Source: Acidimicrobiia bacterium
GTDB taxonomy: Bacteria; Actinomycetota; Acidimicrobiia; ATN3; PSLF01
Reading direction: 5' to 3'
NCBI GenBank assembly: GCA_040289475.1
Contig: PSLF01000009.1
Span: 1,325 to 65,324 of the forward strand
DNA: 64,000 bases
The notes beneath the pieces are model-generated. The model worked only from the letters and a program-made list of their open reading frames with translations. It searched no databases and was not told where the DNA came from. Of the stretch, positions 7,696 through 34,614 are shown in pieces; within the stretch, counting starts at the first letter, position 1, and the number at the start of each line of letters is the position of its first letter. Position numbers and translations under genes: made by a program.

Positions 7696-7738
7696 CTGAG
7701 TATCGAGCGCCTAGTGTTATGGATTAGCCACAAAAAGT

Positions 7739-8953: not shown

Positions 8954-8961
8954 GGGTAACG

Positions 8962-9687
8962 ATGCCTGGTTGCGGGACCCCCTCAGGAGGAGATGCTTCG
9001 ATCGGGCATACCGAGAGTGGCGCTTCAAATCTAGAGTCTCTGGAAAAGCTCGCCCGGATTTGCACCAGATGCAGACTCGCAGAATCTAGGACCAACGTCG
9101 TTTTCGGCCAAGGAAAAGCCGATGCCGATCTGATGATCATTGGCGAGGCACCTGGCTACCACGAAGATCAACAGGGATTACCCTTCGTTGGTGCTGCTGG
9201 CCGTTTGTTGACCACCCTCTTGGAAGAAGTGGGGATTGCCCGCTCGTCAGTGTACATAGCCAACGTATTGAAGTGCCGGCCTCCTAACAATCGCGACCCA
9301 CTCGACGACGAGGTCGAAGCATGCAAGGGTTACCTATTTCGCCAATTGGAACTTGTTTCTCCTATCGTGATTGTCACCTTAGGCAATTTCGCCACAAAAG
9401 TTATCCTCGCGCGCACTGCCGGGATATCGCGGTTGAGAGGCCAAGTTTTCCCGTACAGAAATAACTCCGTCGTAATACCTACCTATCATCCAGCCGCCCT
9501 TCTCAGAGGAAGCTCACCGTCTCGTTTAGCCGATGCACGCTCCGACATGCGCTTGATCGCAAAGACTTTGGACGAAAGGCGACGCATGCAGTACGAGCGG
9601 CCTAAAAAGGAGGCATTTGAATGGGTAGAAAAAGGGACTCCGGCACGAGTGGGAGCACAAAGCGCATCCCAGCTCGAGCTGTTTTGA
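8962..9687 (+). CDS. Type-4 (family 4) uracil-DNA glycosylase, 4Fe-4S
   Basis: Excises uracil from DNA. 241 residues; the first ~30 are a variable leader. CTRCRLAESR (two cysteines) plus KCRPPNNRDP...EAC supply the four iron-sulfur ligands in the type-4 spacing. GEAPGYHEDQQGLPFVGAAG is the active-site GEAPG-ExxxGxPFVG block and PTYHPAALLR the C-terminal HPA motif. Common in thermophiles and actinobacteria. Start ATG has GGGG at 8953-8956, and the gene begins 8 bases after alr. The C-terminal ~40 residues after ARSDMRLIAKTL are poorly conserved. Confidence 0.92.
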   Translation: MPGCGTPSGGDASIGHTESGASNLESLEKLARICTRCRLAESRTNVVFGQGKADADLMIIGEAPGYHEDQQGLPFVGAAGRLLTTLLEEVGIARSSVYIANVLKCRPPNNRDPLDDEVEACKGYLFRQLELVSPIVIVTLGNFATKVILARTAGISRLRGQVFPYRNNSVVIPTYHPAALLRGSSPSRLADARSDMRLIAKTLDERRRMQYERPKKEAFEWVEKGTPARVGAQSASQLELF

Positions 9688-9741
9688 AGCTGCGGCCGGT
9701 CGACTATCTTTTTTCGTACCGACACAGGTAGGTCTGCGAAG

Positions 9742-10236
9742 TTGCAGACTTTGTGCCGCCTCAATAGCAGCGGGGCCGAAGAAACCGAGGCTTTGGGCGA
9801 AGCTCTCTCGCATCACTTGCGCGAGGGAGATCTGGTCGTCTTGAGAGGCCCGTTAGGGTCCGGAAAGACAACCTTGGTGCGAGGAATCGCACGGGGCCTC
9901 GGCTGCCCCGCCGTCTCCAGTCCGACATTTGTTCTCGTGATGGAGTACAGAGGTCGTAAAACCCTCCGCCACGCCGACTTCTTTAGGCTGGAGTCATCTG
10001 TAGAAGTCGAAGATCTCGGATTGGAAGAGATCATGGGACCAGAGGCCATAACTGTTGTCGAGTGGCCTGAGCCGCTTATGCCTTTTGCCGAAGCAGGATA
10101 TTTACAAATCTTGCTCGATTTTGGTTGTGCACCATCCGAGAGGTGTATCGAGGTCGCCACGGAAGGGGAAGCGTTTCGAAGCCGTTCTCATCGCATTGCC
10201 CAGGCTTTGGCTAACACTTTTCAGAAGGCGGTCTAG
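9742..10236 (+). CDS. tsaE: tRNA t6A biosynthesis ATPase TsaE
   Basis: P-loop ATPase that drives the TsaB-TsaD complex making threonylcarbamoyl-adenosine at tRNA position 37. Walker A GPLGSGKTTLVRGIARGL (about residues 33-50), then the family block SSPTFVLVMEY, HADFFRLE (Walker-B-like Asp), and VVEWPEPLMPF. 164 residues. TTG at 9742 is the likely start, with AGGTAGGT about 10 bases upstream; no better ATG precedes the Walker motif. TsaB begins 4 bases after the stop, forming a tsaE-tsaB-rimI-tsaD order widespread in bacteria. Confidence 0.94.
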   Translation: MQTLCRLNSSGAEETEALGEALSHHLREGDLVVLRGPLGSGKTTLVRGIARGLGCPAVSSPTFVLVMEYRGRKTLRHADFFRLESSVEVEDLGLEEIMGPEAITVVEWPEPLMPFAEAGYLQILLDFGCAPSERCIEVATEGEAFRSRSHRIAQALANTFQKAV

Positions 10237-10240
10237 GGCT

Positions 10241-11068
10241 ATGTTGGTTTTAGGGATCTCGTCGTCGACAGCCAAACACTCGGTTGCGGTCTGTGAGGAC
10301 AACAAGGTTCTAGGCGAGATTTTTGTCGGGACTCCCTTTCGGCACGCCGAGTACCTGCCCAAGGCACTTTCGGAGGTTTTGCTTTATGCCGAGAGAAAAG
10401 CTGCCGAGGTCGATGTTGTCGGCGTGGATATCGGGCCGGGGCTTTACACAGGGTTGCGAGCAGGGGTCGCTGTGGCCAAAGCGGTTTGCCTCGCTCTCGA
10501 CAAGCCGGTTGTCCCCGTTCCTTCGCTTTGGGCGTTGGCTTACGCAGGATCGAGGGCAGTTGGGGAGAAGTTGATCGCAGTGGTCGACGCGAGACGGAAG
10601 GAGCTGTTTTGGCAGGTCTGTCCTCCCTCCGTAGACGAGCTCGCAGACGCTCTCGCTGCTTACGTTTCCGATTGGGGAGCGTCGACGTCAGAGGAAGAGA
10701 TCGGGCTTAGACTGGGAAAAGAGGAAGATTTGCTAGCCGAGCTCTCTGAGCTCGGTCCAACGGCGCACCAATACGCGCTGTTAGGTGAGGGGGCTGTGGT
10801 GTTTAGAGGCCGAGCTCTCGCTACAGCTTCGAAGGCTGGACGCAAAGACCTTTTATCGTTTTTAGAAGCACTGCGAATCATCGAGGTGTTCAAATATCCA
10901 ACTGCGTCTGGCGTGGCCGAGTGTGCATCGCTACTGGCTAATGTGGAGCCAAGCCTTCTCTTGGCACCCGAGAATGTAGGTGCAATCTACATGCGGGGCC
11001 CTGATGCCAACCGACCCGCCGAGCGACGGGCCGAGGCTTTGGTCCCCTCCAAGATTTTCTTCGAGTAA
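10241..11068 (+). CDS. tsaB: tRNA t6A biosynthesis protein TsaB
   Basis: Inactive ASKHA-fold partner that scaffolds TsaD. MLVLGISSSTAKHSVAV at the N-terminus and VDIGPGLYTGLRAGVAVAK (about residues 65-83) are the TsaB signatures. The frame is open from 10055, but ATG 10241, four bases after tsaE, gives exactly the family N-terminus, so the longer version is rejected. 275 residues, slightly longer than E. coli TsaB, with a variable mid-section (about 140-200). Confidence 0.93.
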   Translation: MLVLGISSSTAKHSVAVCEDNKVLGEIFVGTPFRHAEYLPKALSEVLLYAERKAAEVDVVGVDIGPGLYTGLRAGVAVAKAVCLALDKPVVPVPSLWALAYAGSRAVGEKLIAVVDARRKELFWQVCPPSVDELADALAAYVSDWGASTSEEEIGLRLGKEEDLLAELSELGPTAHQYALLGEGAVVFRGRALATASKAGRKDLLSFLEALRIIEVFKYPTASGVAECASLLANVEPSLLLAPENVGAIYMRGPDANRPAERRAEALVPSKIFFE

Positions 11069-11080
11069 CGGGTTTTGTTT

Positions 11081-11665
11081 ATGGCGACTTCACTTAGAGA
11101 CAGTTCAAACATTTCACTTCCTGTCGAAGTCGTGCCAATGAGGCGCAAGCACCTTCAGGAAGTGCTCTCCATAGAGCAGCGGGTGTATCCGACGCCTTGG
11201 TCTTTAGCCCTGTTTCTTTCGGAGCTTTCCCTTTCCGCCAGTCGTGCTTACTTTGTCGCCAAGTCCGGACGGCGGGTGATTGGCTATGCAGGAGTGGTGA
11301 TGGCTGGGAGCGACGCCCATGTGACAACGGTCGCCGTCGATCCCCAATTCCAAGGACGAAGGGTCGGGACAATGCTTATGCTAGCTGTGGTCGAAGAGGC
11401 GATAGCTAGGGGGGCCATATCTCTTACCTTAGAAGTCCGTTCCACAAACGTTATTGCTCAGGCGCTTTACAAGAAGTTCGGCTTCGTGTCGGTGGGGCTA
11501 CGTAAGAACTATTACATAGAAACTGGCGAGGATGCCCTGATCATGTGGGCAAGAGGTATCGACACGGCCTCTTACAGGGCATTGCTCGAATCGATAAAGA
11601 CGAGCCTTTTTCGGGAGGGGATCTTGTGCACCGCCCCAGTGATAGGCTCTTCAGCTCCTTCTTGA
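11081..11665 (+). CDS. rimI: Ribosomal-protein-alanine N-acetyltransferase RimI (GNAT)
   Basis: GNAT-fold acetyltransferase; E. coli RimI acetylates the N-terminus of S18. VTTVAVDPQFQGRRVGTMLM is motif A with the acetyl-CoA pyrophosphate loop (QGRRVG), followed by LEVRSTNVIAQALYKKFGF (motif B) and the family-typical GLRKNYY. A C-terminal extension of ~35 residues beyond the GNAT core is unusual. The frame is open from a TTG at 11075, but ATG 11081 is preferred. It sits between tsaB and tsaD, its classic position. The real substrate in this organism is unproven. Confidence 0.88.
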   Translation: MATSLRDSSNISLPVEVVPMRRKHLQEVLSIEQRVYPTPWSLALFLSELSLSASRAYFVAKSGRRVIGYAGVVMAGSDAHVTTVAVDPQFQGRRVGTMLMLAVVEEAIARGAISLTLEVRSTNVIAQALYKKFGFVSVGLRKNYYIETGEDALIMWARGIDTASYRALLESIKTSLFREGILCTAPVIGSSAPS

Positions 11666-11734
11666 TGCGAGGATTACGCGCCTGTGGAGTCCTTGCATAT
11701 TCCCCAGTATGTCGACTAGGTACCTGAGGTAGCG

Positions 11735-12775
11735 GTGAGGACGCCTTTGGTACTCGGTTTAGAGACTTCCTGCGACGAAACAGGAGTTGGAGTGGCGCGA
11801 GGGCACACTGTTCTGCTTTCTAACGTCCTGGCCTCTCAGGAACGTCTCCACCGAGATTTCGGCGGAGTTGTCCCGGAAATAGCCGCACGAGCGCACCTGG
11901 AACACCTGGTACCTGTTGTCCACAGGGCCCTAGAGGACGCAGGAGTGGAGCTAAGAGAGATAGACGCGGTAGCAGTTACTGCAGGACCCGGGCTTGCTGG
12001 CGCACTCGTGGTGGGGGTCGCTGCCGCAAAGGCATTGGCAGTAGCTCTCGAAAAGCCCGTCGTGGCAGTCAACCATCTCGAAGGCCATATTTTCTCTGTC
12101 TTTCTTGAGTATCCCGAGTTCTCACCTCCGGCTGTTGCGCTCATAGTGTCCGGGGGACACACTCTTCTGATCCACATCGAAGAGATGGGAAAGTACCGGA
12201 TTTTGGGGGCCACTGTGGACGACGCGGTCGGTGAGGCTTTTGACAAAGTCGCTCGGTTGCTCGGCTTTGGATTTCCGGGAGGTCCGCTGATAGACAGGGC
12301 TTCGAAGGAAGGGGATCCACAACGATTGCGCCTACCCCGGCCGATGCGTGGCGAGGGGTTCGACTTTTCCATGGCTGGACTCAAAACAGCTGTAATAAAC
12401 GCCTTGCAAGAGCTGCATGATCGGGGAGCTCGAATTCGGCGCCACGATGTGGCCGCTGCGTTTCAAGAGGCGGCTGTAGATGTAATGGTGGAGAAAACTG
12501 TCGCCGCAGCAAGGGAGGAGGCTGCTGAAAGAGTCTTGGTGTGCGGCGGAGTGGCAGCCAATTCCCGATTGAGAGACAGAATGGAAAAAGTGTGCAAGGC
12601 CGAAGGGATCGAGCTGTTCGTCCCCTCGCCCAAGCTCTGCACGGACAACGGTGCGATGATAGCTGCTGCCGGAGCGTTCCGCCTCGAGGTTGACGGTCCG
12701 TCGCCCTTGGACTTTCGAGCAGATTCCGGACTACTGTGGCCTTTCGAAGCGCTTGTTGCGCCAACCGACTGCTGA
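11735..12775 (+). CDS. tsaD: tRNA N6-adenosine threonylcarbamoyltransferase TsaD
   Basis: Transfers the threonylcarbamoyl group to A37 of ANN-decoding tRNAs. 346 residues. LGLETSCDETGVGV at the N-terminus, PEIAARAHLEHL (the two metal-binding His of HxxxH), VNHLEGH, VSGGHTLL (nucleotide loop), FDFSMAGLKTAV and the terminal CTDNGAMIAAAGAFR are all present and ordered as in Gcp/TsaD. GTG start at 11735 follows an AGGTAG. The 69-base gap after rimI is the largest in the tsa group but no promoter or terminator is obvious in it. Last gene before the groESL promoter. Confidence 0.96.
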   Translation: MRTPLVLGLETSCDETGVGVARGHTVLLSNVLASQERLHRDFGGVVPEIAARAHLEHLVPVVHRALEDAGVELREIDAVAVTAGPGLAGALVVGVAAAKALAVALEKPVVAVNHLEGHIFSVFLEYPEFSPPAVALIVSGGHTLLIHIEEMGKYRILGATVDDAVGEAFDKVARLLGFGFPGGPLIDRASKEGDPQRLRLPRPMRGEGFDFSMAGLKTAVINALQELHDRGARIRRHDVAAAFQEAAVDVMVEKTVAAAREEAAERVLVCGGVAANSRLRDRMEKVCKAEGIELFVPSPKLCTDNGAMIAAAGAFRLEVDGPSPLDFRADSGLLWPFEALVAPTDC

Positions 12776-12814
12776 CAGTTCAATTTCCGCCCGATAGGAG
12801 AAAAGGCCTCGACA

Positions 12815-12844
12815 TTGACAGCGGCGATGGGATAGCAATAATAT
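12815..12844 (+). promoter_or_regulatory. groESL sigma70-type promoter
   Basis: TTGACA (12815-12820), an 18-base spacer and TAATAT (12839-12844): a perfect -35 and a near-consensus -10. The predicted start site falls around 12851, at the left edge of the CIRCE element, so repressor binding would block initiation. It lies about 160 bases upstream of groES. Confidence 0.8.
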
Positions 12845-12849
12845 CCGAA

Positions 12850-12876
12850 TTAGCACTCGATCATGTTGAGTGCTAA
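12850..12876. promoter_or_regulatory. CIRCE operator (HrcA binding site)
   Basis: TTAGCACTC, a 9-base spacer, then GAGTGCTAA: an exact match to the CIRCE inverted repeat with the canonical spacing. HrcA binds it and represses chaperonin genes until heat shock. It directly follows the -10 box of the groESL promoter. No second copy was seen upstream of groEL, and hrcA itself is not in this window. Confidence 0.96.
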
Positions 12877-13004
12877 CGAGCACGGTGTTCGCCTGACAGC
12901 CAGCTCTGGGCAGCCAGAGAATACAAGGTGGTTGAGGGGCGAGCGCCGAGCTGTGTTGTACAAGCATCTGTATAAGTCAGTCTTGAATTTAGGGAGGGAA
13001 GGAG

Positions 13005-13292
13005 ATGAACCTGAAGCCACTTGAGGACCGAGTAGTCGTCAGACCGAAGGAGGCCGAAGAGACCACGACTTCTGGATTGGTTATTCCCGACACCGCTAAG
13101 GAGCGTCCTCAAGAAGGAGAGGTGCTCGCAGTTGGGCCGGGTGCCTACCAGGATGGGCAGCGAATCCCCATGGATGTGAAGGTCGGTGACACCGTCATCT
13201 ATTCAAAGTACGGGGGCACCGAGATAAAGGTAGACGACGAAGAGCTTCTGATCTTGAGCTCGCGGGATATCCTCGCGATCGTTGAAAAATAG
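13005..13292 (+). CDS. groES: Co-chaperonin GroES (Cpn10)
   Basis: 95 residues forming the heptameric lid of the GroEL chamber. [20 protein letters not shown] at the start, the mobile loop [18 protein letters not shown] (about 22-39), EVLAVGPG and the C-terminal [17 protein letters not shown] are standard. A strong GGGAGGGAAGGAG stretch precedes the ATG. The groEL gene follows after 133 bases, longer than in many bacteria; transcription from the CIRCE-controlled promoter most likely continues into it. Confidence 0.98.
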
Positions 13293-22131: not shown

Positions 22132-23760
22132 ATGCGCCGGCGTGATTGTGTTTTGGTAGTCGATTTCGGTGCGCAGTACGCGCAGTTGATAGCAAGGCGC
22201 ATTCGCGACGCCAAGGTCTACTCTGAGATCGTAGCGCCTTCGGATCTAAAACGGCGTATTGCGGCTGGGGGAGTAATAGGCCTAGTACTTTCCGGTGGCC
22301 CCAAGTCAGTGTACGCCAACGACGCTCCCCGTATCGACCTCACTGAACTGGTAGGCGGTGTGCCAATGCTGGGGATTTGTTACGGCGCACAACTTATCGC
22401 AGACCAACTGGGAGGCGAGGTTCGGCGGACCGGAGTCGCAGAGTTCGGCAGAACCATGCTGAGATCCGTTTCTGGCTCTGTTCTCTTGGGAGAACTTCCC
22501 GAAGAGAACATCGTCTGGATGAGTCACAACGATGTGATCACGGCTCCTCCTGGCAACGCGGTGGTCACCGGATCCACGGACGCGAGTCCGGTCGCCGCAT
22601 TCGAGGATCTTCGAAACGAGGTATACGGTGTGCAGTTTCATCCCGAGGTAGTACACACCGAACGAGGAGACGAGATTCTCAAGCGCTTTCTCTTCGAAGT
22701 TTGTGGTGCTAGCCCTTCTTACACGACGGTGTCCGTAATAGATGCTGCTGTCGAGGAAATCAGGGCGAGAGTGGGAGACGAGCGAGTTCTGTGTGGACTG
22801 TCAGGAGGTGTTGACTCCGCGGTTGCCGCAGCCCTAGTACACAAGGCGGTGGGAGACAAGTTGGTGTGCGTGTTTGTGGACCACGGGCTGCTACGCAAAG
22901 GCGAGGCAGAAGCTGTGGTGCGAACGTTTCGAGAACGAATGGGGATGAATTTGGTCGAGGTGAAGGCTGCAGACAGGTTTTTACAGCGTTTAAAAGGCGT
23001 GACGGATCCCGAGGAAAAGAGAAAGGCGATAGGCGAAACTTTCATTCGCGTATTTGAGGAGGTAGCACGCGGAGGTCTCGGTCCAGACAGTGCCCAGCCT
23101 CGTTTAAGAGTTTCTCACGAGAGAGAACCAGCTAGTCAACAAGCATCGCTTAGTAAAGGAGAGCTAAAAGAAGTCCCGCGGTTTTTAGTGCAGGGCACTC
23201 TCTATCCCGACATAGTCGAGTCGGGGACTTCACAGTCAGCCACGATAAAGAGCCATCACAACGTGGGCGGCCTTCCCGAGACAATGGACTTTGAACTGAT
23301 CGAGCCATTGAGAAATTTGTTCAAAGACGAAGTGCGGCGAATAGGCGAGGAGCTCGGTCTCTCTGAGGAGATCGTTTGGCGGCAACCTTTTCCGGGACCC
23401 GGTCTTGCCGTGAGAATCATTGGTGAGGTGTCGCCCGAGCGTCTCGAGATCTTGAGAGAGGCCGACGCCATCGTCCTTGAGGAGATCAAGCGGGCTGGCC
23501 TATATAAGGAGCTGTGGCAGAGCTTTGCCGTTCTCCCTGCCATCAAAAGCGTGGGGGTCATGGGAGACGAGCGGACCTATGCATATCCAGTGATCGTTAG
23601 GGCGGTCAAGAGTGAGGATGCAATGACCGCCGACTGGGCGCGCCTTCCTTACGAGGTTCTAGAGCGAATCGCGACCCGCATAATCAACGAAGTCGAGGGA
23701 GTGAACCGGGTCGCTTACGACATCAGTTCCAAGCCTCCTGCGACTATCGAGTGGGAGTAA
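22132..23760 (+). CDS. guaA: GMP synthase (glutamine-hydrolysing), with extra insertion
   Basis: Amidates XMP to GMP. N-terminal class-I glutaminase with nucleophile C83 ([12 protein letters not shown]) and VQFHPEV; ATP-pyrophosphatase P-loop [16 protein letters not shown] (about 220-235); C-terminal dimerisation domain ending PPATIEWE. 542 residues versus about 510-525 usual: residues ~314-348 (between [11 protein letters not shown] and [10 protein letters not shown]) are an insertion, polar and rich in Ser, Gln, Arg and Glu, within the XMP-binding region's helix-loop. The insertion keeps frame and both flanking motifs intact, so the enzyme should work. cheW begins 4 bases downstream. Confidence 0.95.
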
Positions 23761-23764
23761 GGCT

Positions 23765-24229
23765 GTGGACCCGAAAACTGAACTCACGCGCTATGTGGTG
23801 TTTCAGATCGGAAACGATAGGTATGCGTGCCCGCTGGAGAACGTGGCCGAGATCAGTCGCATACCAGCTGTCACGCCTGTCCCGCGCACCGATGACTTTG
23901 TTGTGGGAGTCGCCAACTTGCGTGGAAACATCGTGACGATACTGGATCTCAAGCCTTTGTTGGGCATTCCCGAAGATGAAGACAAGCCACTCTCGCAGTA
24001 CAGGATGCTGATAGTAGCGCACGATAACCTAACGGCAGCTATAGTCGTCGACCGTGTCGAGGGAGTTGTCACGATGGCCGTGTCCGATCTGGAGCCCCCC
24101 CTTCCCGGTGTTCCCGAGCAAATAAGACCGTGGATCTTGGGGCAATTCAGGCATGGGGACTCCCTTGCGGGCGCCATCGACCCCGCAATTATCGCTGGCT
24201 TGCGAGAATTGTTGGAGAAACCAGTCTGA
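23765..24229 (+). CDS. cheW: CheW-type chemosensory adaptor
   Basis: 154-residue SH3-like adaptor that couples receptors to CheA. RYVVFQIGNDRYACPLENVAEI opens the domain; PRTDDFVVGVANLRGNIVTILDLKPLLG is the conserved central block (GVxNLRGxIVxxxDL). GTG start follows guaA by 4 bases, so the chemosensory genes may be partly transcribed with guaA. First of two CheW-domain proteins in the cluster; no methyl-accepting receptor gene is present in the window. Confidence 0.93.
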   Translation: MDPKTELTRYVVFQIGNDRYACPLENVAEISRIPAVTPVPRTDDFVVGVANLRGNIVTILDLKPLLGIPEDEDKPLSQYRMLIVAHDNLTAAIVVDRVEGVVTMAVSDLEPPLPGVPEQIRPWILGQFRHGDSLAGAIDPAIIAGLRELLEKPV

Positions 24230-24313
24230 GGGTGGAGGAACAGGCTGAGTTGACTCGGTGTCCTGTCCGAAGGGTCCGCTTATACGAGTACGGCAAAAGG
24301 CTGGGAGCAACCA

Positions 24314-27085
24314 GTGAGTAGCTGGATGCAGGACGAGTCTCTTCTGCAAACCTTTCGTTCGGAGGTCTCCGAGCGGATCGCCTCTCTTCAGGCCGGACTA
24401 CTGCAGCTCGAGGAGACTCCCGACAATCCCGACGTCATGAATGCGATCTTCAGGGACGCTCACACCATCAAAGGCTCCGCCAAAATGATGGGCTTCGTGG
24501 CAATAAAAGAGCTTGCACACCGAATGGAAGACGTCTTGGGGGATGTAAAGGATGGCCGTCTGGCGCTGGGACCAAGTCTCGCTGATATTTTGCTCCACTC
24601 CTCCGACCAGATCGTTGCATTGCTGGACTCGCTGGATCGCCCCGACGAGATTCCCAACGCAGCGCGTGCATTGATCCGAGCACTTGAGGAAGCGCGGATC
24701 AGAGGAGGATCGGCGAGAAACACGCAGCGGTTAGGGGAAGCGAGGGAAGCCAAGTCCGAAAGAGCTGCCCAGGTCGCTCGGGAGCAAGGAGAGGAGAACG
24801 CCCAGCTTGCTTCGGCTTCTGCTGAACTGTCGGGCGGACGTAGTAGAGAAAACATGCCACCAGAAACGCACGCCGACCTTTCTCCAGAATCGATCGAAAT
24901 CCAAACTGCCGATCGTGCCGCTGCAGGAGGGCAGGCGGATCGGTCTCGTGATGAGAAAATACATCCTCGCAATTCTGAGCAGGCGAAGCGGCCCTGGCAG
25001 CAGAGAGGGGGTCGAGAGGGAGATGAGGGCGCAGCTAAAGGAGAACCCCGAAGGTCAGGGAGCGACCAGACCGAGTCATCCAGTCCTAGAGCCCCTTCTT
25101 CGCTCGGAGAAACTCTTGGAGCGGCTCGCATCGCAAAAAAGATCCATGTGAGGGCTCGGCAGCTCAAGGGATCAACAGACTCTGCAATTGCGGGGCCCTC
25201 TCCGTCGAACGAAGCAGCTATGCACGAGTCGCCTCCAGCAAAAGCCGGAGCAGAAGCTGGGGTTTCGGTGAGGTCGGAGACTTTCGTAAATCCGATTGGC
25301 CAGAGTATACGTATCGAGGCATCGAAGGTGTATGAGCTCATCGATCAGGCGGGAGAGGCTGTAATAGGAGAGGTCAGGATCGAAGAGCTCGCCAGACGTC
25401 TTTCCGATTTCATGCGAGATCTCGAAGCGCGAATGCGGCGATTCAGGCACAAGCAGGATTCGAACGCTTTTCTGTCGGCTCTGGAGGAAGTGCGCCAGAA
25501 GGTCGGATCGATAAGCTCACAGCTGATAGAAACCGTTCTCTCTCAGACCCGCAGCCTCGATCGCCTCCAAGAGCAGGCTATGGGACTCGCCATGCTTCCC
25601 ACCGCGTCGATCTTCGCTCCCTTCCCTCGCCTTGTGCGAAACCTCTCACGGGAGTTGAGCAAAGAGGTGGAGCTTGAGCTCGATGGTGGAGGGACCGAGC
25701 TGGACAAGCAAGTTCTGGAACAGATCGTCGATCCGATAAGACACCTTCTTATCAACGCTGTGGATCACGGAATCGAGCGGCCCGAGGAGCGCCTCAAGGC
25801 AGGTAAACCTCGCAAGGGGACTGTCCGAGTCGCCGCTCGCCAACGAGGGCGCCAAGTCGTTATAGAAGTTAGTGACGACGGAAGGGGTATCGATCCTGCT
25901 CGAGTGAGAGAAGCCGCCCTAAAGAAGGGTTTAATTCTTGACGCTGACGAGCTATCAGAGTCAGAGAGCCTCTCGCTTTTGTTTCGTCCGGGATTTTCAA
26001 CGGCCGGGTGGGTCACGGATACCTCCGGCCGGGGCGTGGGGCTCGACGTCGTAAAAGAGGCTGTAGACCGCTTAAAAGGAACGGTCGAGGTTTACTCGAA
26101 GGTAGGAGAAGGAACGACCTTCTCCATCACTCTCCCCATCACTCTTGCGATAGTGGACGTACTATTGGTCGACCTAGGAGGCCAGGACTTCGCTATTCCC
26201 GTTGCCTCGGTAGATGAAGTGTTATCGCCCCAAGATCAAGAGGTAAAAGAGGTAGCTGGGACAACCTGCGTCGTATGGAGAGGTCGCTCGGTAGCGCTTT
26301 TCGATTTGCACTCGATTCTAGGGGTGCCAGGCTACAACGAATCGAGCTCGCCTCAGAGCCGCTCCGAGGCTGGAAACGCGGCTTACATATCGCATCCCAA
26401 TAATCTCTCGGGCTCTGGAGATCCTACCGATGAAAGCGGCGGTGCCGGCCCGGCCCTGATTCTCAGCAGTGGGACTCGCAGGATTGCTGCACGGGTGGAC
26501 GCTCTGATAGGTCAGCAGGAGGTTGTCATCAAAGGTGTGGGTTCTTTCTTACCGAGAATCCGGCACATCGCCGGGGCTTCGATTTTGGGCGACGGGCGCG
26601 TCGTACTCGTACTGGATCCAAACGAGTTGATAGATACGGCACGGCGTCCAGGCGGATTCGGAGTAACTAGCCCCAGACGGAGAAAGCTGATCTCTAAGAC
26701 TGGCGCAGCTCCCCGTCGAAAACTGTTGGTCGTCGACGACTCACTCGCTATACGAGAAATGCTGCGTTCGATTTTCGAGGCTGCCGGCTACGACGTCGAA
26801 ATTGCAATTGACGGACAAGATGCACTTGGAATCTTGCAGACATCCAAGGTGGACGGGGTGGTGACCGACGTAGAGATGCCTCGCCTGGACGGATTTTCTT
26901 TGTGCGAAGCAATAAGAGCTAGACCCGACACCTCCGAGTTGCCGGTGATCATGGTTACTGGGCTCGAGAAAGAAGAAGACAAGAGGCGGGGTCTAGAAGT
27001 AGGCGCCAATGCATATATCGTCAAGTCCGCTTTTGACCAAAGCGCTCTCTTGGATGCGGTGAGAAGCCTTGTCGGATCGGCTTGA
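24314..27085 (+). CDS. cheA: Hybrid chemosensory histidine kinase CheA with C-terminal receiver
   Basis: 923 residues. Hpt domain at 1-110 with phospho-accepting H50 (RDAHTIKGSAKMMGF); a long low-complexity Glu/Arg/Ser/Pro linker (about 130-330) in place of a clear CheY-binding P2 domain; dimerisation helices (about 335-420); HATPase with N-box LLINAVDHGIERPEER (~476), G1 DDGRGID (~521) and G2 GRGVGLDVV; CheW-like domain (~609-790); receiver from ~803 with acceptor D852 (VVTDVEMPRLDG) and K904. The fused receiver may act as phosphate sink or output. GTG start with GGGAG upstream. Overlaps cheB by 17 bases. This architecture is frequent in pilus-type or alternative-function systems. Confidence 0.94.
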   Translation: MSSWMQDESLLQTFRSEVSERIASLQAGLLQLEETPDNPDVMNAIFRDAHTIKGSAKMMGFVAIKELAHRMEDVLGDVKDGRLALGPSLADILLHSSDQIVALLDSLDRPDEIPNAARALIRALEEARIRGGSARNTQRLGEAREAKSERAAQVAREQGEENAQLASASAELSGGRSRENMPPETHADLSPESIEIQTADRAAAGGQADRSRDEKIHPRNSEQAKRPWQQRGGREGDEGAAKGEPRRSGSDQTESSSPRAPSSLGETLGAARIAKKIHVRARQLKGSTDSAIAGPSPSNEAAMHESPPAKAGAEAGVSVRSETFVNPIGQSIRIEASKVYELIDQAGEAVIGEVRIEELARRLSDFMRDLEARMRRFRHKQDSNAFLSALEEVRQKVGSISSQLIETVLSQTRSLDRLQEQAMGLAMLPTASIFAPFPRLVRNLSRELSKEVELELDGGGTELDKQVLEQIVDPIRHLLINAVDHGIERPEERLKAGKPRKGTVRVAARQRGRQVVIEVSDDGRGIDPARVREAALKKGLILDADELSESESLSLLFRPGFSTAGWVTDTSGRGVGLDVVKEAVDRLKGTVEVYSKVGEGTTFSITLPITLAIVDVLLVDLGGQDFAIPVASVDEVLSPQDQEVKEVAGTTCVVWRGRSVALFDLHSILGVPGYNESSSPQSRSEAGNAAYISHPNNLSGSGDPTDESGGAGPALILSSGTRRIAARVDALIGQQEVVIKGVGSFLPRIRHIAGASILGDGRVVLVLDPNELIDTARRPGGFGVTSPRRRKLISKTGAAPRRKLLVVDDSLAIREMLRSIFEAAGYDVEIAIDGQDALGILQTSKVDGVVTDVEMPRLDGFSLCEAIRARPDTSELPVIMVTGLEKEEDKRRGLEVGANAYIVKSAFDQSALLDAVRSLVGSA

Positions 27086-28187
27086 CGAGCTAGAGAGAGC
27101 TGCAAATCGCATTCGCGTCCTGGTGTGCGAAGACTCGAAGACCGATCGCGAGGTTTTGGTTCGCCTCCTAATCCACAACGAAGGAATAGAGGTTGTGGCG
27201 GTGGCTGAGAGGGGAGAGGACGTCATACCTTACCTTGAACGTTTCGATCCTGACATAGTCACTCTCGACATCAACCTTCCAGGTAAATCGGGCATCGAGG
27301 TAATCGATGAGGTCATGGCCAAACACCCCATCCCCATCCTCGTTATATCCGGTCAAGCTGGAGATCCTAGTGTCGCAATGGAGGCACTTGCCGCAGGAGC
27401 CGTGGAGATTATTGCAAAGCCCGAAATTGACTCAGATGATGGCTTCGAGGCCCAAGCAGTGCGGCTCGGGGATCTTTTGCGAACCCTCTCGAAGGTGAAA
27501 GTTATCAGGCATCTCAGGGCGCGCCTTGGCGGTTTTGGAAAGTACTCGGCCATCGAAAAAGCCCGCGTAGAAGCTATAGAACCGGCTGTTGCTTCGCCGA
27601 AAAAGATCGTAGGGCTTGCGGCATCGACCGGTGGTCCCCAGGCGCTCAAAGCTGTCCTGGCGGAACTGGGACCCGATTTTCCTGCGCCGGTCCTCGTCGT
27701 CCAGCACATTGCAAAGGGGTTTACCGGTGGGTTCGTGGAGTGGCTGCAAACTGCAACTAGTCCCGAGGTCCGGTTAGCCCAAGACGGGGAGCCTCTTCGG
27801 GCCGGCGTGGTCTATGTTGGACCCGAGGATTATCACATGATCGTGCGAGGCGGCACGGTGATCCTGAAGCCCCCCGATCCCAAAGACAAGCACTGTCCCT
27901 CTGCGGACAAGTTATTCGCTAGCATGGCATCAGAGGTTGGAAGCGGAGCGGTGTGCGTGATACTTACGGGGATGGGAAACGACGGAGCGTCAGGTGCAAT
28001 GCAGGCCAAGGCGAAGGGTGCTTTGGTGATCGTACAGGACGAGCTATCCAGCGTCGTCTACGGGATGCCCAGGGCAGCTTTGGAGTCGGGAGCGGCAACC
28101 TATGTCGTCTCATTGGGGCGCATGGCGGACGCGATAAGAGCAGCCGTAAGTACCGATACAGAGCAAGCTTTACCGGAGAGCAGGTGA
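27069..28187 (+). CDS. cheB: Chemotaxis response regulator / protein-glutamate methylesterase CheB
   Basis: Demethylates and deamidates receptors when phosphorylated. Receiver domain (about 15-135) with acceptor D67 (IVTLDINLPGKSG), linker, then the methylesterase domain (about 185-360) carrying the triad Ser in LAASTGGPQAL, His in VVQHIAKGF and Asp in TGMGNDGASGA. 372 residues, normal. TTG start within the end of cheA (17-base overlap) implies coupling; no nearby ATG preserves the receiver start. The presence of both CheB and CheR implies methylated receptors encoded elsewhere. Confidence 0.93.
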   Translation: MSDRLDELERAANRIRVLVCEDSKTDREVLVRLLIHNEGIEVVAVAERGEDVIPYLERFDPDIVTLDINLPGKSGIEVIDEVMAKHPIPILVISGQAGDPSVAMEALAAGAVEIIAKPEIDSDDGFEAQAVRLGDLLRTLSKVKVIRHLRARLGGFGKYSAIEKARVEAIEPAVASPKKIVGLAASTGGPQALKAVLAELGPDFPAPVLVVQHIAKGFTGGFVEWLQTATSPEVRLAQDGEPLRAGVVYVGPEDYHMIVRGGTVILKPPDPKDKHCPSADKLFASMASEVGSGAVCVILTGMGNDGASGAMQAKAKGALVIVQDELSSVVYGMPRAALESGAATYVVSLGRMADAIRAAVSTDTEQALPESR

Positions 28188-28212
28188 GAATGCTCAAGAG
28201 AGGGAGGAACCC

Positions 28213-29184
28213 TTGGGCAAGGCCAAGATTTTAGTGGCAGACGACTCGGCTACGCTGCAAAAGGTTGTCAAGGCAGTGTTGAGCCAGCAGGGATACGACG
28301 TCGTCCTGGCTGATGATGGCTTAGAAGCAATACGCAAGTTCTACCAAGAGCGCCCCGACGCCGTAATCTGCGACATTCTGATGCCGAAGATGAACGGCTA
28401 CCTCGTGTGTCGCCTCCTCAAGGAGGACTGGTCTGCTGAGTCTGTCCCCTTTATCATGCTCACCTCCCAGGACGCTCCATCCGACCGTTACCGGGGCCTG
28501 AAAACTGGAGCAGATGCATACCTTTCCAAGGATTTCGACGCGTCCATGCTACTAAAGGCCGTGGACGAAGCCCTTGCCTCGGTGGCCGATCGAGAAAAAA
28601 CACCGCTGGCTGACGAGGAAAGAGCTGAGATGTCCGACGCCGAGATCCTGGCCCGGGTCGGGGACATGCTGGATCGTAAACTTTACGAGGCTACTCTTAT
28701 CGGAGAGGTCAACAAGCTGGCCGCTGTGTCCAGTGACTACGGTGATTTGGTCGCCAACCTACTGTCATTGATTGGATCATTTATCGAGTTTTCGATGGCA
28801 GCTATTGCTCTTATCGGTGAAGAAAGTGTCGGAGTCGCCGTAGCAGAGCCGGCTACCTACGAAGACTTCCAAGAAGTTGTCGCCCACATCGTAGACAATA
28901 TGAACGCGTATGGTGACAAGGCCCTGGCACCCGAAGATGTGAACGTCTGGGCCATTGATCCCGATCAAAATCTCGGTAAGGCCGAGGAGCCAATTCACCC
29001 TCTATCGACTTTCGTGTGTATGCCGCTGAGGACACAGGACTCGATTGTCGCTCTGCTTGCTATCTGCTCTAAGCGAGCCAATGCATTTGGCGAGAAAGAT
29101 CTTTCGACCCTGAGGCTTATAGAGCCTGCGGTAGCAGTGGTCGTGGACAACGGAAGGCTGTACGACCAGGCACGGCTAGGCTGA
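28213..29184 (+). CDS. Response regulator with C-terminal GAF-like domain
   Basis: 323 residues. Receiver at 1-125: KILVADDSATLQ, acceptor D54 (VICDILMPKMNG), T in MLTSQDAP and K in YLSKDF. Residues ~140-320 look like a GAF domain (LIGEVNKLAAVSSDYGDLVANLLSLI..., ending IEPAVAVVVDNGRLYDQARL, a classic GAF terminal helix). No DNA-binding or enzymatic output is visible, so it probably works by protein contacts or ligand sensing. TTG start with GGGAGGAA 6 bases upstream. It takes the place where a CheY would be expected; a diffusible single-domain CheY is not in the window. Confidence 0.85.
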   Translation: MGKAKILVADDSATLQKVVKAVLSQQGYDVVLADDGLEAIRKFYQERPDAVICDILMPKMNGYLVCRLLKEDWSAESVPFIMLTSQDAPSDRYRGLKTGADAYLSKDFDASMLLKAVDEALASVADREKTPLADEERAEMSDAEILARVGDMLDRKLYEATLIGEVNKLAAVSSDYGDLVANLLSLIGSFIEFSMAAIALIGEESVGVAVAEPATYEDFQEVVAHIVDNMNAYGDKALAPEDVNVWAIDPDQNLGKAEEPIHPLSTFVCMPLRTQDSIVALLAICSKRANAFGEKDLSTLRLIEPAVAVVVDNGRLYDQARLG

Positions 29185-29203
29185 AGAGCGAACCGAGTAC
29201 GGG

Positions 29204-30730
29204 GTGGCAGGCGATTCATTCGAATTTCTGGACGACAAAGTATTCAAAAGGATCGGCGATTTAATCGAGCACGCAACGGGGATCAGCTTCGATGAGAAGA
29301 AGCGTGAGATCCTCCGGCTTCACTTGAAAGAGCGGGCGATCGCTACCGGTTGTTCGAGCTTCTCTGACTACCTTGCGCTCCTTGAATCTCCTTCTGGTGC
29401 CAAGGAGATGGAGGAGTTGTCCAACAGAATCGTTGTACACCAGACAGAGTTTTTCCGGAACCGTCCGCAGTTTGAGGCGTTGGAAAAGCTCGTACTTCCC
29501 GAGTTGCTTGCCGAGGCAGCAGGGACTGGACGCACGCTTAAAGTGTGGTCTGCGGGTTGCTCTTCCGGAGAGGAGCCATACTCAATTGCGATGGTTGTGG
29601 CCAAGGTCTTAGGTTCGGGGTTAGGAGCTTGGAACGTGGAGATAGTGGGCACCGATATCTCCGGACCGATCCTGTCTAGGGCGATACAGGCTCGATATCC
29701 TGCCAAGGCGGCTCGTACGGTTCCCGAACCGTACAAGTCTTTGTATCTTCGGGAAACATCCGATGGCGGTTTCGAAGTCGCCGAGGAGATAAAAGCTCTC
29801 GTTTCTTTCAAGGTTCACAATCTCGTAAAAGAGGAGCCGCCTGCCGAAGTACTGCCCGGGGCCCAGCTGGTGTTCTGTCGCAACGTGACCATCTACTTCT
29901 CACAAGGATCGCTGCTGCGTGCCATATCCAACATGGAGGCCGCACTGAGACCGGGTGGCTACCTCTTCTTGGGACATTCCGAGAGCCTTCTTGGGGTAGA
30001 CCACTGCTTTGAACTAGTGGATTTAGCGGCGACGTTTGCCTATCGCAAGCCTAAGAGCCCTCAAGCCGTCCCACAAGCACTACAGCGTGCCATAAAGCGA
30101 ACAAGGGAGAGCGGAGCTGGGGCGCAGCAAGAGAGCGCAGGGAGGCCTCCACCTAGCGGTATCAGGCCGGGGATGTCGCGTTCTGCCGCCCCACCTCTAC
30201 ATCCGATGCGTGGGAGCGATGAGCTAGCCGAGGTCGGCTTGAGCACGCCCGTAGGTCAGGAGTTCAACTCTGAAAGGCATGTATCCTCTCTGAGGAGCGA
30301 AGATGAGGCTCGAGTAAAGGAAGTCGTTGCTGCTGTTCAGGGACGGTTGGAAAAGGGAGATCCGAGAGGAGCGCTGTCTCTCGTAGAAAAAGAAATCGCC
30401 CGCACTCCTACCAACGCGGCTCTTCATTTCTTACACGGCTCCGCCTTGCACGTTCTCGGAGAAGATGGCGCAGCAGCTGCGGCATTTGGGAAGTCCATAT
30501 ACTGCGACGCTCGTTTTTCTCTGGCGTACTTTTACAGGGCTATCTTGCATGAAGACCAGGGGAACCTCAAAGCCGCGACCCGGGACTATGCTGCTGCCAT
30601 GCGGCTTTTGGAGGCCGACTCGCCCGGAAAATGGGATCCGTACTTAGAGGCAATGGATCACTCTCAACTTGTAGAGGTGTGTCGTCAGAAGCTAGTCAAA
30701 CTGGCTAGAGTTTCGGAAGAAGTGAGATGA
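29204..30730 (+). CDS. cheR: Chemotaxis methyltransferase CheR with TPR-like tail
   Basis: Methylates receptor glutamates with SAM. N-terminal helical CheR_N domain, then the SAM fold with VWSAGCSSGEEPYSIAMVV (about residues 112-130), NVEIVGTDISGPIL and VFCRNVTIYF, RPGGYLFLGHSESL. From about residue 379 to 480 there are helical repeats (PTNAALHFLHGSALHVLGE, FSLAYFYRAILHEDQGN) of TPR type, as in CheR proteins of pilus-type and Myxococcus Frz/Che systems. A Ser/Pro/Gly-rich linker joins them. GTG start at 29204. The stop overlaps the next ATG (ATGA). Confidence 0.93.
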   Translation: MAGDSFEFLDDKVFKRIGDLIEHATGISFDEKKREILRLHLKERAIATGCSSFSDYLALLESPSGAKEMEELSNRIVVHQTEFFRNRPQFEALEKLVLPELLAEAAGTGRTLKVWSAGCSSGEEPYSIAMVVAKVLGSGLGAWNVEIVGTDISGPILSRAIQARYPAKAARTVPEPYKSLYLRETSDGGFEVAEEIKALVSFKVHNLVKEEPPAEVLPGAQLVFCRNVTIYFSQGSLLRAISNMEAALRPGGYLFLGHSESLLGVDHCFELVDLAATFAYRKPKSPQAVPQALQRAIKRTRESGAGAQQESAGRPPPSGIRPGMSRSAAPPLHPMRGSDELAEVGLSTPVGQEFNSERHVSSLRSEDEARVKEVVAAVQGRLEKGDPRGALSLVEKEIARTPTNAALHFLHGSALHVLGEDGAAAAAFGKSIYCDARFSLAYFYRAILHEDQGNLKAATRDYAAAMRLLEADSPGKWDPYLEAMDHSQLVEVCRQKLVKLARVSEEVR

Positions 30731-31413
30731 GCGCCGATCGCAAAGACGAGCCACCTGCACAGTCGCTTTACAAGCCTGACATTCAGCCAAGCACAGTGCC
30801 GGAAACGCCACAGATTGAAAAGGTGGAGTTGGAAGGAACGGAGCGATCCCTCGAGCGGGTGCAGGACCGATATCCGGTGATAAGGAGCCTAGAGGATTAC
30901 CCATCCCGAGTACGAGAAGACGAGCCCGAAGCATTCGAGCACGCCACGACCGAAAAGGTCCTTCTCTTCCGGGTCGCTTACTTGCGCCTAGCCATCCCAT
31001 TAGACCGGATAAGGATCGTACAGCGCGCCGAGGGAATAAAACCGCTCCCCGAGTCTCCGAGGCACGTTGTCGGTCTAATGGAGCTGGGTCCGTCAGAAGC
31101 TATACCTGTTGTAGACCTTGCACACTCCTTAGGGATCAGGAATACCACTGAGGGTGGTGGGGAGGACTCTAAACGAGTACAGCGTATGCTCGAGTCGACG
31201 GGCGGTGTCAAAGAGCATGTTCTCGTTTACAACTCCGACCGCGGGACAGTTGGATTTATGATCGATCGTGCCGAGGCAGTCGTTGAGGCAGCAACAAATC
31301 CTCTTCCTGCAGCCCTTGAGGGTGCGGAGGATTCTTCCCTCACAGGGCTCGCACGATTCGAAAACGAGACAGCGTACCTCATCGACTTGGAGCGTCACGT
31401 TCCCAAGCGATGA
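30727..31413 (+). CDS. CheW-domain protein with N-terminal extension
   Basis: 228 residues. The first ~75 are charged and probably disordered; from ~78 (TEKVLLFRVAYLRLAIPLDRI) a CheW domain follows, with HVVGLMELGPSEAIPVVDLAHSLG and a C-terminal FMIDRAEAVVEAATNPLP. The second CheW in the cluster, divergent enough that it could serve a separate receptor or array position. Starts by ATGA overlap with cheR. Ends 43 bases before the convergent GTPase gene. Confidence 0.85.
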   Translation: MSADRKDEPPAQSLYKPDIQPSTVPETPQIEKVELEGTERSLERVQDRYPVIRSLEDYPSRVREDEPEAFEHATTEKVLLFRVAYLRLAIPLDRIRIVQRAEGIKPLPESPRHVVGLMELGPSEAIPVVDLAHSLGIRNTTEGGGEDSKRVQRMLESTGGVKEHVLVYNSDRGTVGFMIDRAEAVVEAATNPLPAALEGAEDSSLTGLARFENETAYLIDLERHVPKR

Positions 31414-31456
31414 CGTCGAGGCCGGACCGAGGCGCTTTCAAGCTGCTATCAAGTGC

Positions 31457-32047
31457 TCAAGCTGAAGACGCAGTCGTGTCGTTGCTTTCCAGAGCTCTTT
31501 CCAGTTTTGGGCTTATTGCTAGGGAAAGGAACGCAAGAAGCGACTCTTTTACCTGACTTCTGTTTCGCACATCCGCTACAACTATGAAGTCCAAATCAGC
31601 GATGCCAAGAGTTACGGCTATCTCGGTTTTTAGTGCGTCTAAATCCCCCAAGGATGTCGCCTCGCTGCTCGGCGTGTTGATAACGACCAAAAAGGGCCAC
31701 TTCCCATCCTTAACGAAGTACCTGAAGTACTCGGCCGCCTCCTCGTACGATTCTTTTTGGCCAGCCCGCACAATCAAAATGAATCCGAGCATTCCCTCCT
31801 TCCATGCCTGCCAAAAGTCCCTCAGTTCTTCTTGAGTCCGCATGCCGTATAGGTAGATTACGAGTTCTTTGGAGATGGTGATACGGCCGAAGTCGATCGA
31901 GATCGTCCCCTTTCCACGGGGATGGGGTTCTTGGGTGGCAACCGTCATGTCAGCGATGGTTCTGACAAATGTCGTCTTGCCCGATCCCGGGGCCCCGGTG
32001 ACGACAACCTTAACTGGAGCTGATGATTGCTGGCCGAGAAGTGCCAA
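31457..32047 (-). CDS. Conservon-type (CvnD/MglA-like) small GTPase
   Basis: 196 residues. Walker A GAPGSGKTTFVRTIAD (about 18-33), then GTISIDFGRITISKELVIYLYG, the stretch shared with actinobacterial CvnD and MglA-related GTPases. The G3 motif, normally G-TPGQ-type in this group, reads GMRTQ, and no NKxD is seen (VINTPSS in its place), so nucleotide specificity is uncertain. TTG at 32047 is the only usable start because an in-frame stop lies 6 codons upstream. Conservon genes normally stand with a histidine kinase and a roadblock protein, neither of which adjoins. It converges on the chemosensory cluster; a functional tie is only inferred from position. Confidence 0.8.
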   Translation of the reverse strand: MALLGQQSSAPVKVVVTGAPGSGKTTFVRTIADMTVATQEPHPRGKGTISIDFGRITISKELVIYLYGMRTQEELRDFWQAWKEGMLGFILIVRAGQKESYEEAAEYFRYFVKDGKWPFLVVINTPSSEATSLGDLDALKTEIAVTLGIADLDFIVVADVRNRSQVKESLLAFLSLAISPKLERALESNDTTASSA

Positions 32048-32328: not shown

Positions 32329-34614
32329 ATGCGAATAGTCGGTGATCCCGTAATGAGTTCGCTAAACGAGCAACAAAGAGAGGCAGTCGAGTCGGAAAGC
32401 GGACCTGTTCTAGTAGTAGCCGGGGCAGGGTCTGGCAAAACACGCGTACTCACACACCGAATCGCCTACCTCGTAAGCACGCTCCGAGCAGATCCTTCTT
32501 CGATTCTGGCCATTACTTTTACTAACAAAGCGGCAGAAGAAATGCTCCAGCGGGTTGAGGGGCTTTTAGGATCCCGCCTAGCGGGCGTTATGTGGGTGAA
32601 AACGTTCCATTCGGCATGCGCCCGCATACTGCGCGACAGCGCCAGGCTACTTGGGTTTTCCTCGAACTTCACCATCTACGACGAAGCCGACTCCCACAAC
32701 CTGATCAAAAATTGCTTGAAGGATTTGGGATACGATCCCAAACGGATTCCACCGGGAAGAGTGAGGCAGCTGATTTCGGCTGCCAAGAACGAGTTAGTGA
32801 GCCCATATTCATATCAAGCGGGGATGGAAGAGGGTCTCCCATTCAATCTTGGAGAGATCGCCTCAGAGTACTCTAGGAGGCTTCGAGACTCCAATGCAAT
32901 GGACTTTGATGACTTGATAGTGAACACCGTCAATCTTCTCCAAGAGCACCCCGCGGTTCGAGCTTCCTATAGCCAGAAATTTACCCATATTTTGATCGAC
33001 GAGTTCCAGGATACCAACCTCGCGCAGTGGGAGCTCGTCCGCATGCTCGGTTCGTCTCATCGCAGCGTATTTTGCGTGGGAGATCATGACCAATCTATTT
33101 ATCGATTTAGAGGTGCCGACTACCGCAACCTCGACAGATTTATGCAGGAGTTTCCCGAGGCCAGGGTTGTAAAGCTCGAACAGAACTACCGTTCTACCCA
33201 AGTAATTTTGGATGCGGCGAACGCGATTATTTCCAAGAACCAAAGCCGGGTTCACAAGAAGTTATGGACTGCAAAAGGTGGCGGCGACAAGATCGTTGTT
33301 TACGAAGCGTACGATGAGCAGGACGAAGCGTCATTCATCTGCCGGCAGATCGAACGATTCGTAGCAGAAGAGGTTTTTTCTTTTGGAGACGTGGCGGTTT
33401 TTTACAGGACCAACGCTCAAAGCCGGGCTATCGAAGAGGCAATGGTTGCGGAGGGGATTCCCTACCGGGTCGTGGGAAACGTCCGGTTCTACGAGCGAAG
33501 AGAGGTAAAAGACCTCACGGCATACTTGAGGGTTTTACTCAACCCCTTCGACGAGCTCTCGTTGTTGCGCATAGTAAATGTGCCTAGACGAGGCATTGGT
33601 GCAGGAACTGTAGACAAGCTTAGGAGAGCAGCTTCAGCGAGCAGAACCACTCTTGCATCTTTGGTAGAACAAATTGGCGAGTCGGATGGAATAGACGGCG
33701 ATGTCGCAGGGCTAGGCTCACAGGCGACACAGCGCGTCGCTGCTTTCGGTAGACTGCTCGCCTCTCTCCGAGACACGGCTAGTAAGGCTCAGCGAGTCGA
33801 AGAGATCGTCACGACTGTCCTCACTGAGAGTGGAATCATCGAGGAGTACGGGGCCGATGGTAGCCCTCAGGCGCTGTCCCGCATCGAAAACCTCGAAGAG
33901 TTTGTGGGCGTGGCCCAACGCTTCGACGAGCTAGCCGACTCGGGCGAGCTAGGAGAAGACACGTGGGCAGGAGAGTCGGCAGGATTGGGTCGCCTAGAAG
34001 CTTTCTTGGAGCAAGTTAGCCTTGTCTCCGCCTCAGACGAGGTCGAGAGAGACTCCTCTGCAGTGCAACTTCTCACTGTTCACAATGCAAAAGGACTCGA
34101 GTTTCCAGTGGTCTTTGTCGTGGGCTTGGAAGAGGGGATTTTTCCTCATTCTAGATCCCTGCTAGACGAAGAAGATCTCGAAGAGGAGCGCCGCTTGTGC
34201 TACGTTGCAATCTCCAGGGCGGCCGAGCGGCTGTTTCTTACGCATGCGGTAACCCGCAGCCTGTATGGCTCGATCATGCAAAACCCCCCTTCGCGGTTTT
34301 TGCGCGAGCTACCAGAGTCGACTCTCGACCGAAAGGGCTTCTATTCTGATGAGGCTGGCAGTGCGAGAAGCAGTGAAGGCCTTCTCAGCTGGCGAGGCAC
34401 GGCTACAGCTTCTGATAAGGGGCGCCCCAGCCGTGTTGCTTCCCCGGTATTAGTTGTAGGTGATGACGTAGTGCATGCCAAGTACGGCGAGGGGGTGGTC
34501 GTTGAGCGGTACGGCTCCGGAGATGCCGCCGAGGTTGTAGTGCGCTTCCCCGGAATTGGCGAGAAGAGATTTTTGTTGGGTTGGGCTCCGCTCAAGAAAA
34601 AGGGTGTGTCGTGA
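32329..34614 (+). CDS. pcrA: ATP-dependent DNA helicase PcrA/UvrD
   Basis: 761-residue SF1A helicase for repair, replication-fork rescue and RNA-polymerase backtracking. Motifs: Q-motif LNEQQREAVES, I GAGSGKTRVLTHR, Ia ITFTNKAA, II ILIDEFQDTN, III VGDHDQSIYRFRGAD, IV EQNYRSTQ, V VQLLTVHNAKGLEFPVVFV, VI EERRLCYVAISRA. The C-terminal Tudor-like domain (VVHAKYGEGVVVERYG) that binds RNA polymerase is present. ATG 32329 has GGGAGG 5 bases upstream. The 281-base gap before it holds a weak promoter, TTGAAC-17-TATCAG (32213-32241). The stop overlaps a small downstream ORF. Confidence 0.95.
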   Translation: MRIVGDPVMSSLNEQQREAVESESGPVLVVAGAGSGKTRVLTHRIAYLVSTLRADPSSILAITFTNKAAEEMLQRVEGLLGSRLAGVMWVKTFHSACARILRDSARLLGFSSNFTIYDEADSHNLIKNCLKDLGYDPKRIPPGRVRQLISAAKNELVSPYSYQAGMEEGLPFNLGEIASEYSRRLRDSNAMDFDDLIVNTVNLLQEHPAVRASYSQKFTHILIDEFQDTNLAQWELVRMLGSSHRSVFCVGDHDQSIYRFRGADYRNLDRFMQEFPEARVVKLEQNYRSTQVILDAANAIISKNQSRVHKKLWTAKGGGDKIVVYEAYDEQDEASFICRQIERFVAEEVFSFGDVAVFYRTNAQSRAIEEAMVAEGIPYRVVGNVRFYERREVKDLTAYLRVLLNPFDELSLLRIVNVPRRGIGAGTVDKLRRAASASRTTLASLVEQIGESDGIDGDVAGLGSQATQRVAAFGRLLASLRDTASKAQRVEEIVTTVLTESGIIEEYGADGSPQALSRIENLEEFVGVAQRFDELADSGELGEDTWAGESAGLGRLEAFLEQVSLVSASDEVERDSSAVQLLTVHNAKGLEFPVVFVVGLEEGIFPHSRSLLDEEDLEEERRLCYVAISRAAERLFLTHAVTRSLYGSIMQNPPSRFLRELPESTLDRKGFYSDEAGSARSSEGLLSWRGTATASDKGRPSRVASPVLVVGDDVVHAKYGEGVVVERYGSGDAAEVVVRFPGIGEKRFLLGWAPLKKKGVS

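Follow-up and report, generated by a model that had tools for sequence, protein, structure and literature searches.

A chemosensory gene cluster between guaA and uvrD

We analysed a stretch of 64,000 nucleotides (hereafter the window) from an Acidimicrobiia bacterium (assembly GCA_040289475.1, contig PSLF01000009.1, positions 1,325 to 65,324 of the forward strand), in which a cluster of chemosensory (che) genes lies between guaA (22132..23760, forward strand), the upstream boundary gene assigned from its open reading frame (ORF), and a uvrD/pcrA-type helicase gene (32329..34614, forward strand), assigned from its ORF and synteny as the downstream boundary of a class-wide guaA-che-uvrD locus. 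ORFs and Pfam matches in the window give the gene order guaA-cheW-cheA(Hpt/REC)-cheB-REC/GAF-cheR(TPR-like)-cheW, all on the forward strand, followed by a convergent gene for a P-loop GTPase and then by uvrD. The first CheW adaptor (23765..24229; PF01584, E-value 8.6e-31) precedes a hybrid CheA kinase of 923 aa (24314..27085), in which Pfam recognises one Hpt domain, a HATPase domain, a CheW domain and a C-terminal receiver (REC) domain. Next come a CheB methylesterase with REC and CheB_methylest domains (27069..28187; PF01339, E-value 2.7e-59), a REC-GAF response regulator (28213..29184; PF00072, E-value 1e-26, with GAF models just below their cut-offs), a CheR methyltransferase with a TPR-like C-terminal tail (29204..30730; PF01739, E-value 2.7e-52; TPR_16, E-value 5e-4, weak and below the curated cut-off), and a second CheW adaptor with an N-terminal extension of about 75 residues (30727..31413; PF01584, E-value 1.6e-15). 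The convergent gene (31457..32047, reverse strand) encodes a degenerate GTPase of the Ras superfamily, as judged from Pfam, motifs, a tree and the predicted fold. Every gene of the cluster has Pfam support, the GAF and TPR parts being weak by sequence, and the seven genes that an earlier note on this DNA had listed were all recovered in the same order and at the same positions. The che genes are tightly packed, with overlaps at cheA/cheB and at cheR and the second cheW, and because the first cheW starts 4 bp after guaA, guaA and the che genes probably form one operon.

Receptors, adaptors and flagellar markers in the genome

The earlier note had described the cluster as receptor-less and as lacking a CheY and flagellar genes. 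Within the window this description holds, as no match to a methyl-accepting chemotaxis protein (MCP), a single-domain CheY or FlhA was found there. However, a search of the whole source genome (G000; 1.97 Mb in 24 contigs, 96.8% complete) detected three MCPs, all encoded on contigs other than that of the cluster, so the term receptor-less applies to the window alone. The N-terminal part of these MCPs is a polytopic input region embedded in the membrane, with several membrane-spanning stretches and no Pfam ligand-binding domain, and all three have exactly 147 residues past the signalling tip, a length that, judged on its own, is compatible with the 40H class and too short for full 44H. Their equal tip-to-end lengths fit a single array type. 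Profile searches of the genome found two stand-alone CheW proteins and one CheA, all in this cluster, and since CheW-domain matches occur nowhere else, the cluster is the sole chemosensory system of the genome. The absence of a single-domain CheY is likewise confined to the window: the genome has 27 receiver domains, and several belong to short receiver-only proteins, none of which is encoded inside the window. Regarding flagella, FlhA, the sole flagellar marker searched, had no match in this genome or in that of its order-mate G001.

Domain content and phylogeny of the chemosensory proteins

The Hpt histidine and the catalytic boxes of CheA are conserved (alignment A1), and the REC sites of both CheA and the REC-GAF protein are intact. 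In a quick, unrooted tree of 95 rows, which gives a clade and names no Wuichet-Zhulin class, the window CheA joins those of G001, family f6, Frankiales and the stripped loci described below (SH-aLRT 99), while seven CheAs from flagellar genomes of the class form a separate group (99) and Firmicutes flagellar CheAs are also separate (96). The phylogenetic check proposed in the earlier note thus sets this CheA apart from the flagellar ones, but does not by itself separate the alternative cellular function (ACF) class from the type IV pilus (Tfp) class. CheAs of the Tfp class usually carry several Hpt domains (PMC10782961), and Pfam detects one here. A CheR-TPR protein accompanied by multidomain response regulators marks ACF pathways (PMC3447774), and the cluster encodes a TPR-like CheR tail and the multidomain REC-GAF regulator. 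Together with the lack of an FlhA match and the position of CheA outside the flagellar clade of the class, these traits bear out the resemblance to alternative-function systems that the earlier note had pointed out, and support the view that the cluster is of an alternative, non-flagellar type. Such systems have precedents in the phylum, as a survey of actinobacterial flagella recorded ACF systems in six species (PMC10746217).

The REC-GAF protein is a candidate for the output protein. Its AlphaFold model has a mean pLDDT of 84.6, and its best full-length PDB match, a fragment of a dual-sensor histidine kinase (6ob8), supports the REC plus GAF assignment. We rejected a further, hidden effector domain, as the fold search returned REC and REC-GAF proteins. 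A REC-GAF gene accompanies the same CheA type in families f6, f15, f18 and f20 and in Frankiales loci.

The guaA-uvrD locus across the class

Comparison of 60 related genomes showed that the same type of CheA sits between guaA and uvrD, or beside one of them where contigs end, and that most class relatives have guaA next to cheA. The locus occurs in three states: a full cluster, a stripped form, and a form with no CheA of this type. The full cluster is found in five genomes, namely, the window genome, G001, and three members of family f6 (G010, G020 and G015). Protein identity between G001 and the window genome is 44-68% for the cluster and 45-62% for the receptors, and the f6 order is MCP-cheW-cheA-REC-GAF-cheR, with no cheB seen there. 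Metagenome-assembled genomes of Frankiales carry cheW-MCP-cheA-REC-GAF at a different locus, and in both the f6 and the Frankiales loci an MCP gene lies directly upstream of cheW-cheA or cheA.

The stripped state, guaA-cheA-(REC-GAF)-(HisKA kinase)-uvrD, was found in 12 genomes (loci L073-L076, L078-L082 and L084-L087). It has a CheA-REC protein without cheW, cheB or cheR at the locus, and families f10, f15, f18 and f20 have a HisKA kinase of about 274-306 aa after it. None of these 12 genomes has an MCP match, 11 lack FlhA, and all 12 have PilT above the cut-off; it is these relatives that are truly receptor-less. FlhA itself is present in 12 of the 60 genomes. As a separate observation, G007, G055 and G057 have FlhA and a CheA match, yet no MCP match.

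The che-linked GTPase

A GTPase gene adjoins the che genes in all five full-cluster genomes. With a profile built on three sequences, we found GTPases in 17 of the 60 genomes, and in their tree the che-linked copies (window, G001, G010, G020 and G015) and one copy near guaA in G005 form a single clade (support 98/95), separate from the pil-operon and conservon-like GTPases of the class. The che-linked copy is the only GTPase found in G010, whose pil operon has roadblock and DUF4388 genes and no GTPase, and also in G020; there the pil contig is cut, and the single GTPase is what the genome shows. A second GTPase in G015 (L222:7548-8539), with a roadblock gene downstream, is distinct from its che-linked copy.

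The copies of the window and of G001 lie on a long branch and lack the switch I insertion; both keep the P-loop and have an altered switch II and NKxD, and the f6 copies have canonical motifs. In the window protein switch II has changed from GTPGQ to GMRTQ and NKxD is lost, so that of the three G motifs of the MglA family (P-loop, switch II PGQ and NKxD) only the first is intact. Its predicted structure (pLDDT 79) has a Ras-type fold, and the match to MglA (6izw, TM-score 0.61) is on a par with the Ras and Rab scores and hence unspecific; in a PDB sequence search the best matches were Rab and Arf proteins, with no MglA among the 60 matches listed. The suggestion in the earlier note of an MglA-type GTPase is therefore borne out in part: the P-loop, the Ras-type predicted fold and the orthology to the other che-linked copies agree with it, but the protein is degenerate, and the pil operon is where this genome encodes its intact MglA-like protein. 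We also considered membership in a conservon and rejected it, as the tree places the protein apart from conservon-like GTPases; no roadblock or HisKA kinase gene, as in a CvnA-CvnB-CvnC-CvnD operon, lies beside the window GTPase.

A type IV pilus operon headed by an MglA/MglB-like module

Following up the proposal that the system might steer pili, we located both pilB and pilT and a roadblock partner in the genome. The full pil operon on contig C8 comprises genes for a roadblock protein, a DUF4388 protein, an MglA-like GTPase, two further ORFs, PilB, PilT, PilC, a pilin, PilD, PilM and PilN/PilO-like proteins, the names PilM/N/O and PilC/PilD being given from sequence appearance and gene order and not from Pfam. 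PilB and PilT both carry MshEN domains, and the pilin has an N-methylation motif. The genome has no other roadblock (MglB-like) gene; this one and the intact MglA-like GTPase of the same operon make up an MglA/MglB-like pair. The head of the pil operon is identical in make-up in G001 (roadblock-DUF4388-GTPase); the pil operons retrieved from G035, G037 and G045 showed no roadblock gene. MglA-family and PATAN genes are known as occasional neighbours (PMC4316618). In our own reading, DUF4388 corresponds to PATAN. Across the class, PilT is above the cut-off in all 16 CheA-bearing genomes without FlhA.

Several genes around these pil components were recorded in passing. Contig 8 of the source genome (L016:1462-4035) encodes an 857-aa PilB-like ATPase with MshEN, a double zinc ribbon and a C-terminal REC domain whose phospho-acceptor position is apparently Glu, and between the pil-operon GTPase and pilB lies a gene for a 423-aa proline-rich protein with no Pfam match (L017:10788-12059). 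Direct che-pil linkage occurs elsewhere: locus L122 (about 3309-13166) has a che operon containing DUF4388 and PilB/MshEN-like genes, and at L131 a che operon is followed by PilB and PilC.

Comparison with known systems

The closest parallel is the Frz system of Myxococcus xanthus, with FrzE as its CheA and FrzZ as its output regulator. Frz switches polarity through MglA/MglB (PMC3441718), and FrzF is a CheR-TPR protein (PMC3447774). The two share two CheWs, a CheA-REC hybrid, CheB, a CheR with a TPR-like tail and a separate response regulator, in a non-flagellated cell with type IV pili and with a Ras-like GTPase and a roadblock protein in the genome. They differ in that the window has a REC-GAF protein in place of the REC-REC FrzZ, no MCP gene in the cluster, a (degenerate) GTPase gene beside the che genes, and a CheA of an actinobacterial clade. 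In Myxococcus, the frz and mglA genes are not neighbours, and it was genetic work that connected them. With the Pil-Chp (Tfp) systems of Pseudomonas and cyanobacteria, the window genome shares a CheA-REC hybrid, PilB/PilT pili and a DUF4388 (PATAN-like) protein in the pil operon; unlike them, it has a single Hpt, no pilG/pilH/pilI/pilJ cluster, a TPR-like CheR tail and the linkage to an MglA-like GTPase. Wsp-type ACF systems also have two CheWs, a CheR with a TPR tail (TPR-like in the window), CheA-REC, CheB and a multidomain response regulator, whereas the window cluster has no GGDEF output, a GTPase neighbour and its guaA-uvrD location. The actinobacterial conservons (CvnA-D) likewise pair a roadblock protein with a Ras-like GTPase, but no CvnA-type kinase or CvnC gene was recognised beside the window GTPase, and its clade is apart from the conservon-like GTPases of the class. 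Research on motility in Actinobacteria has centred on flagella, and in the open-access literature we found no description of this locus, of a CheA without chemoreceptors, or of GTPase-linked che clusters in Actinobacteria.

Proposed function and alternatives

From the observed gene content, synteny, orthology, motif loss and co-occurrence, we propose, with moderate confidence, that the cluster encodes a Frz-like, ACF-like pathway that controls type IV pili and whose target is likely the MglA-MglB module. A Frz-Mgl-like action on the pili is the most likely one, because CheR-TPR together with a multidomain regulator marks ACF systems and Frz acts on MglA/MglB. In this pathway, the three MCPs, the two CheWs and the hybrid CheA would form arrays whose receptors are tuned by CheR and CheB; phosphate would pass from the Hpt domain of CheA to the REC-GAF protein and to the REC domain of CheA, a possible sink. 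The output would most likely fall on the type IV pilus via the MglA-MglB-DUF4388 module heading the pil operon, as a change of polarity or of extension and retraction, by analogy with Frz and MglA/MglB in Myxococcus. The che-linked GTPase would be an old MglA-like partner of the locus. In the order to which the window genome belongs, the pil operon has another, intact MglA-like GTPase, and the window copy has drifted: it retains the P-loop, has probably lost the normal GTPase cycle, and may now act as an adaptor or decoy. In weighing this evidence, we give more weight to the GTPase linkage in two lineages than to the co-occurrence with pili. A number of observations count against the proposal: the five genomes with a full cluster count as two lineages and not as five independent cases; G005 retains a GTPase near guaA though no che genes were recognised there; the degeneracy of the window GTPase makes a direct GTPase-cycle role of this copy unlikely; PilT is common in the class even without CheA, so its co-occurrence is weak by itself; and the che and pil genes are not physically linked in this genome.

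Two other schemes would explain part of the data. The pilus could be controlled in a Pil-Chp-like manner without a GTPase, with CheA phosphorylating a single-domain or REC-GAF regulator that acts directly on PilB/PilT and with the che-linked GTPase left as a relic. The pil operon and the several short REC proteins of the genome, the lost motifs of the window GTPase, and the stripped relatives, which have CheA-REC and PilT without a GTPase of the che-linked clade, are all consistent with this; but the single Hpt, in contrast to the several usual in Tfp CheAs (PMC10782961), the lack of a PilG/PilH-like gene in the cluster and the retention of the GTPase next to it in two lineages make it rather improbable. 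We consider similarly unlikely, if a shade less so, a non-motility ACF system, Wsp-like or developmental, that would control biofilm, second messengers or cell differentiation independently of pili. The TPR-like CheR tail, the multidomain response regulator and CheA-REC are ACF traits (PMC3447774), no flagellum is indicated, and the GAF domain could have a small-molecule ligand. Against it stand the GTPase linkage, the lack of a GGDEF, EAL or DNA-binding output in the cluster and, in G000, G001 and G010, the co-occurrence of a pil operon that opens with MglB-like and DUF4388 genes.

Two further possibilities have very little probability. Decay towards the stripped state of the relatives, leaving little function here, would agree with the degenerate GTPase and with the many relatives that lack MCP, CheW, CheB or CheR at the locus, but it is hard to reconcile with intact CheA boxes and REC sites, with the presence of CheW, CheB, CheR and receptors, and with the same cluster and receptors in G001. 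An F-class (flagellar) chemotaxis system, its flagellar genes having escaped the draft assembly of 24 contigs, is the least probable of all. Flagella are common among class relatives, but this assignment was rejected, as a genome of this completeness and its order-mate both lack FlhA and CheA falls outside the flagellar clade of the class.

We prefer the Frz-like reading. Two actinobacterial lineages have a Ras-type GTPase gene next to their chemosensory cluster, and G010 has MglB-like and DUF4388 genes at the start of its pil operon; this arrangement would allow the control of pilus polarity by a chemosensory system to be tested in a case independent of Myxococcus. As for the history of the guaA-uvrD locus, we tentatively suggest that an MCP-driven, GTPase-linked system has been reduced in some relatives to a CheA-REC kinase working without a chemoreceptor. 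The HisKA kinase and REC-GAF protein next to it may drive or read this kinase, which would still serve type IV pili, and the window genome would keep the full receptor-driven form with its MglA-family partner. The stripped loci, a by-product of this analysis, are more unusual than the window cluster. A CheA with no detectable receptor questions the rule that each chemosensory kinase needs an MCP array.

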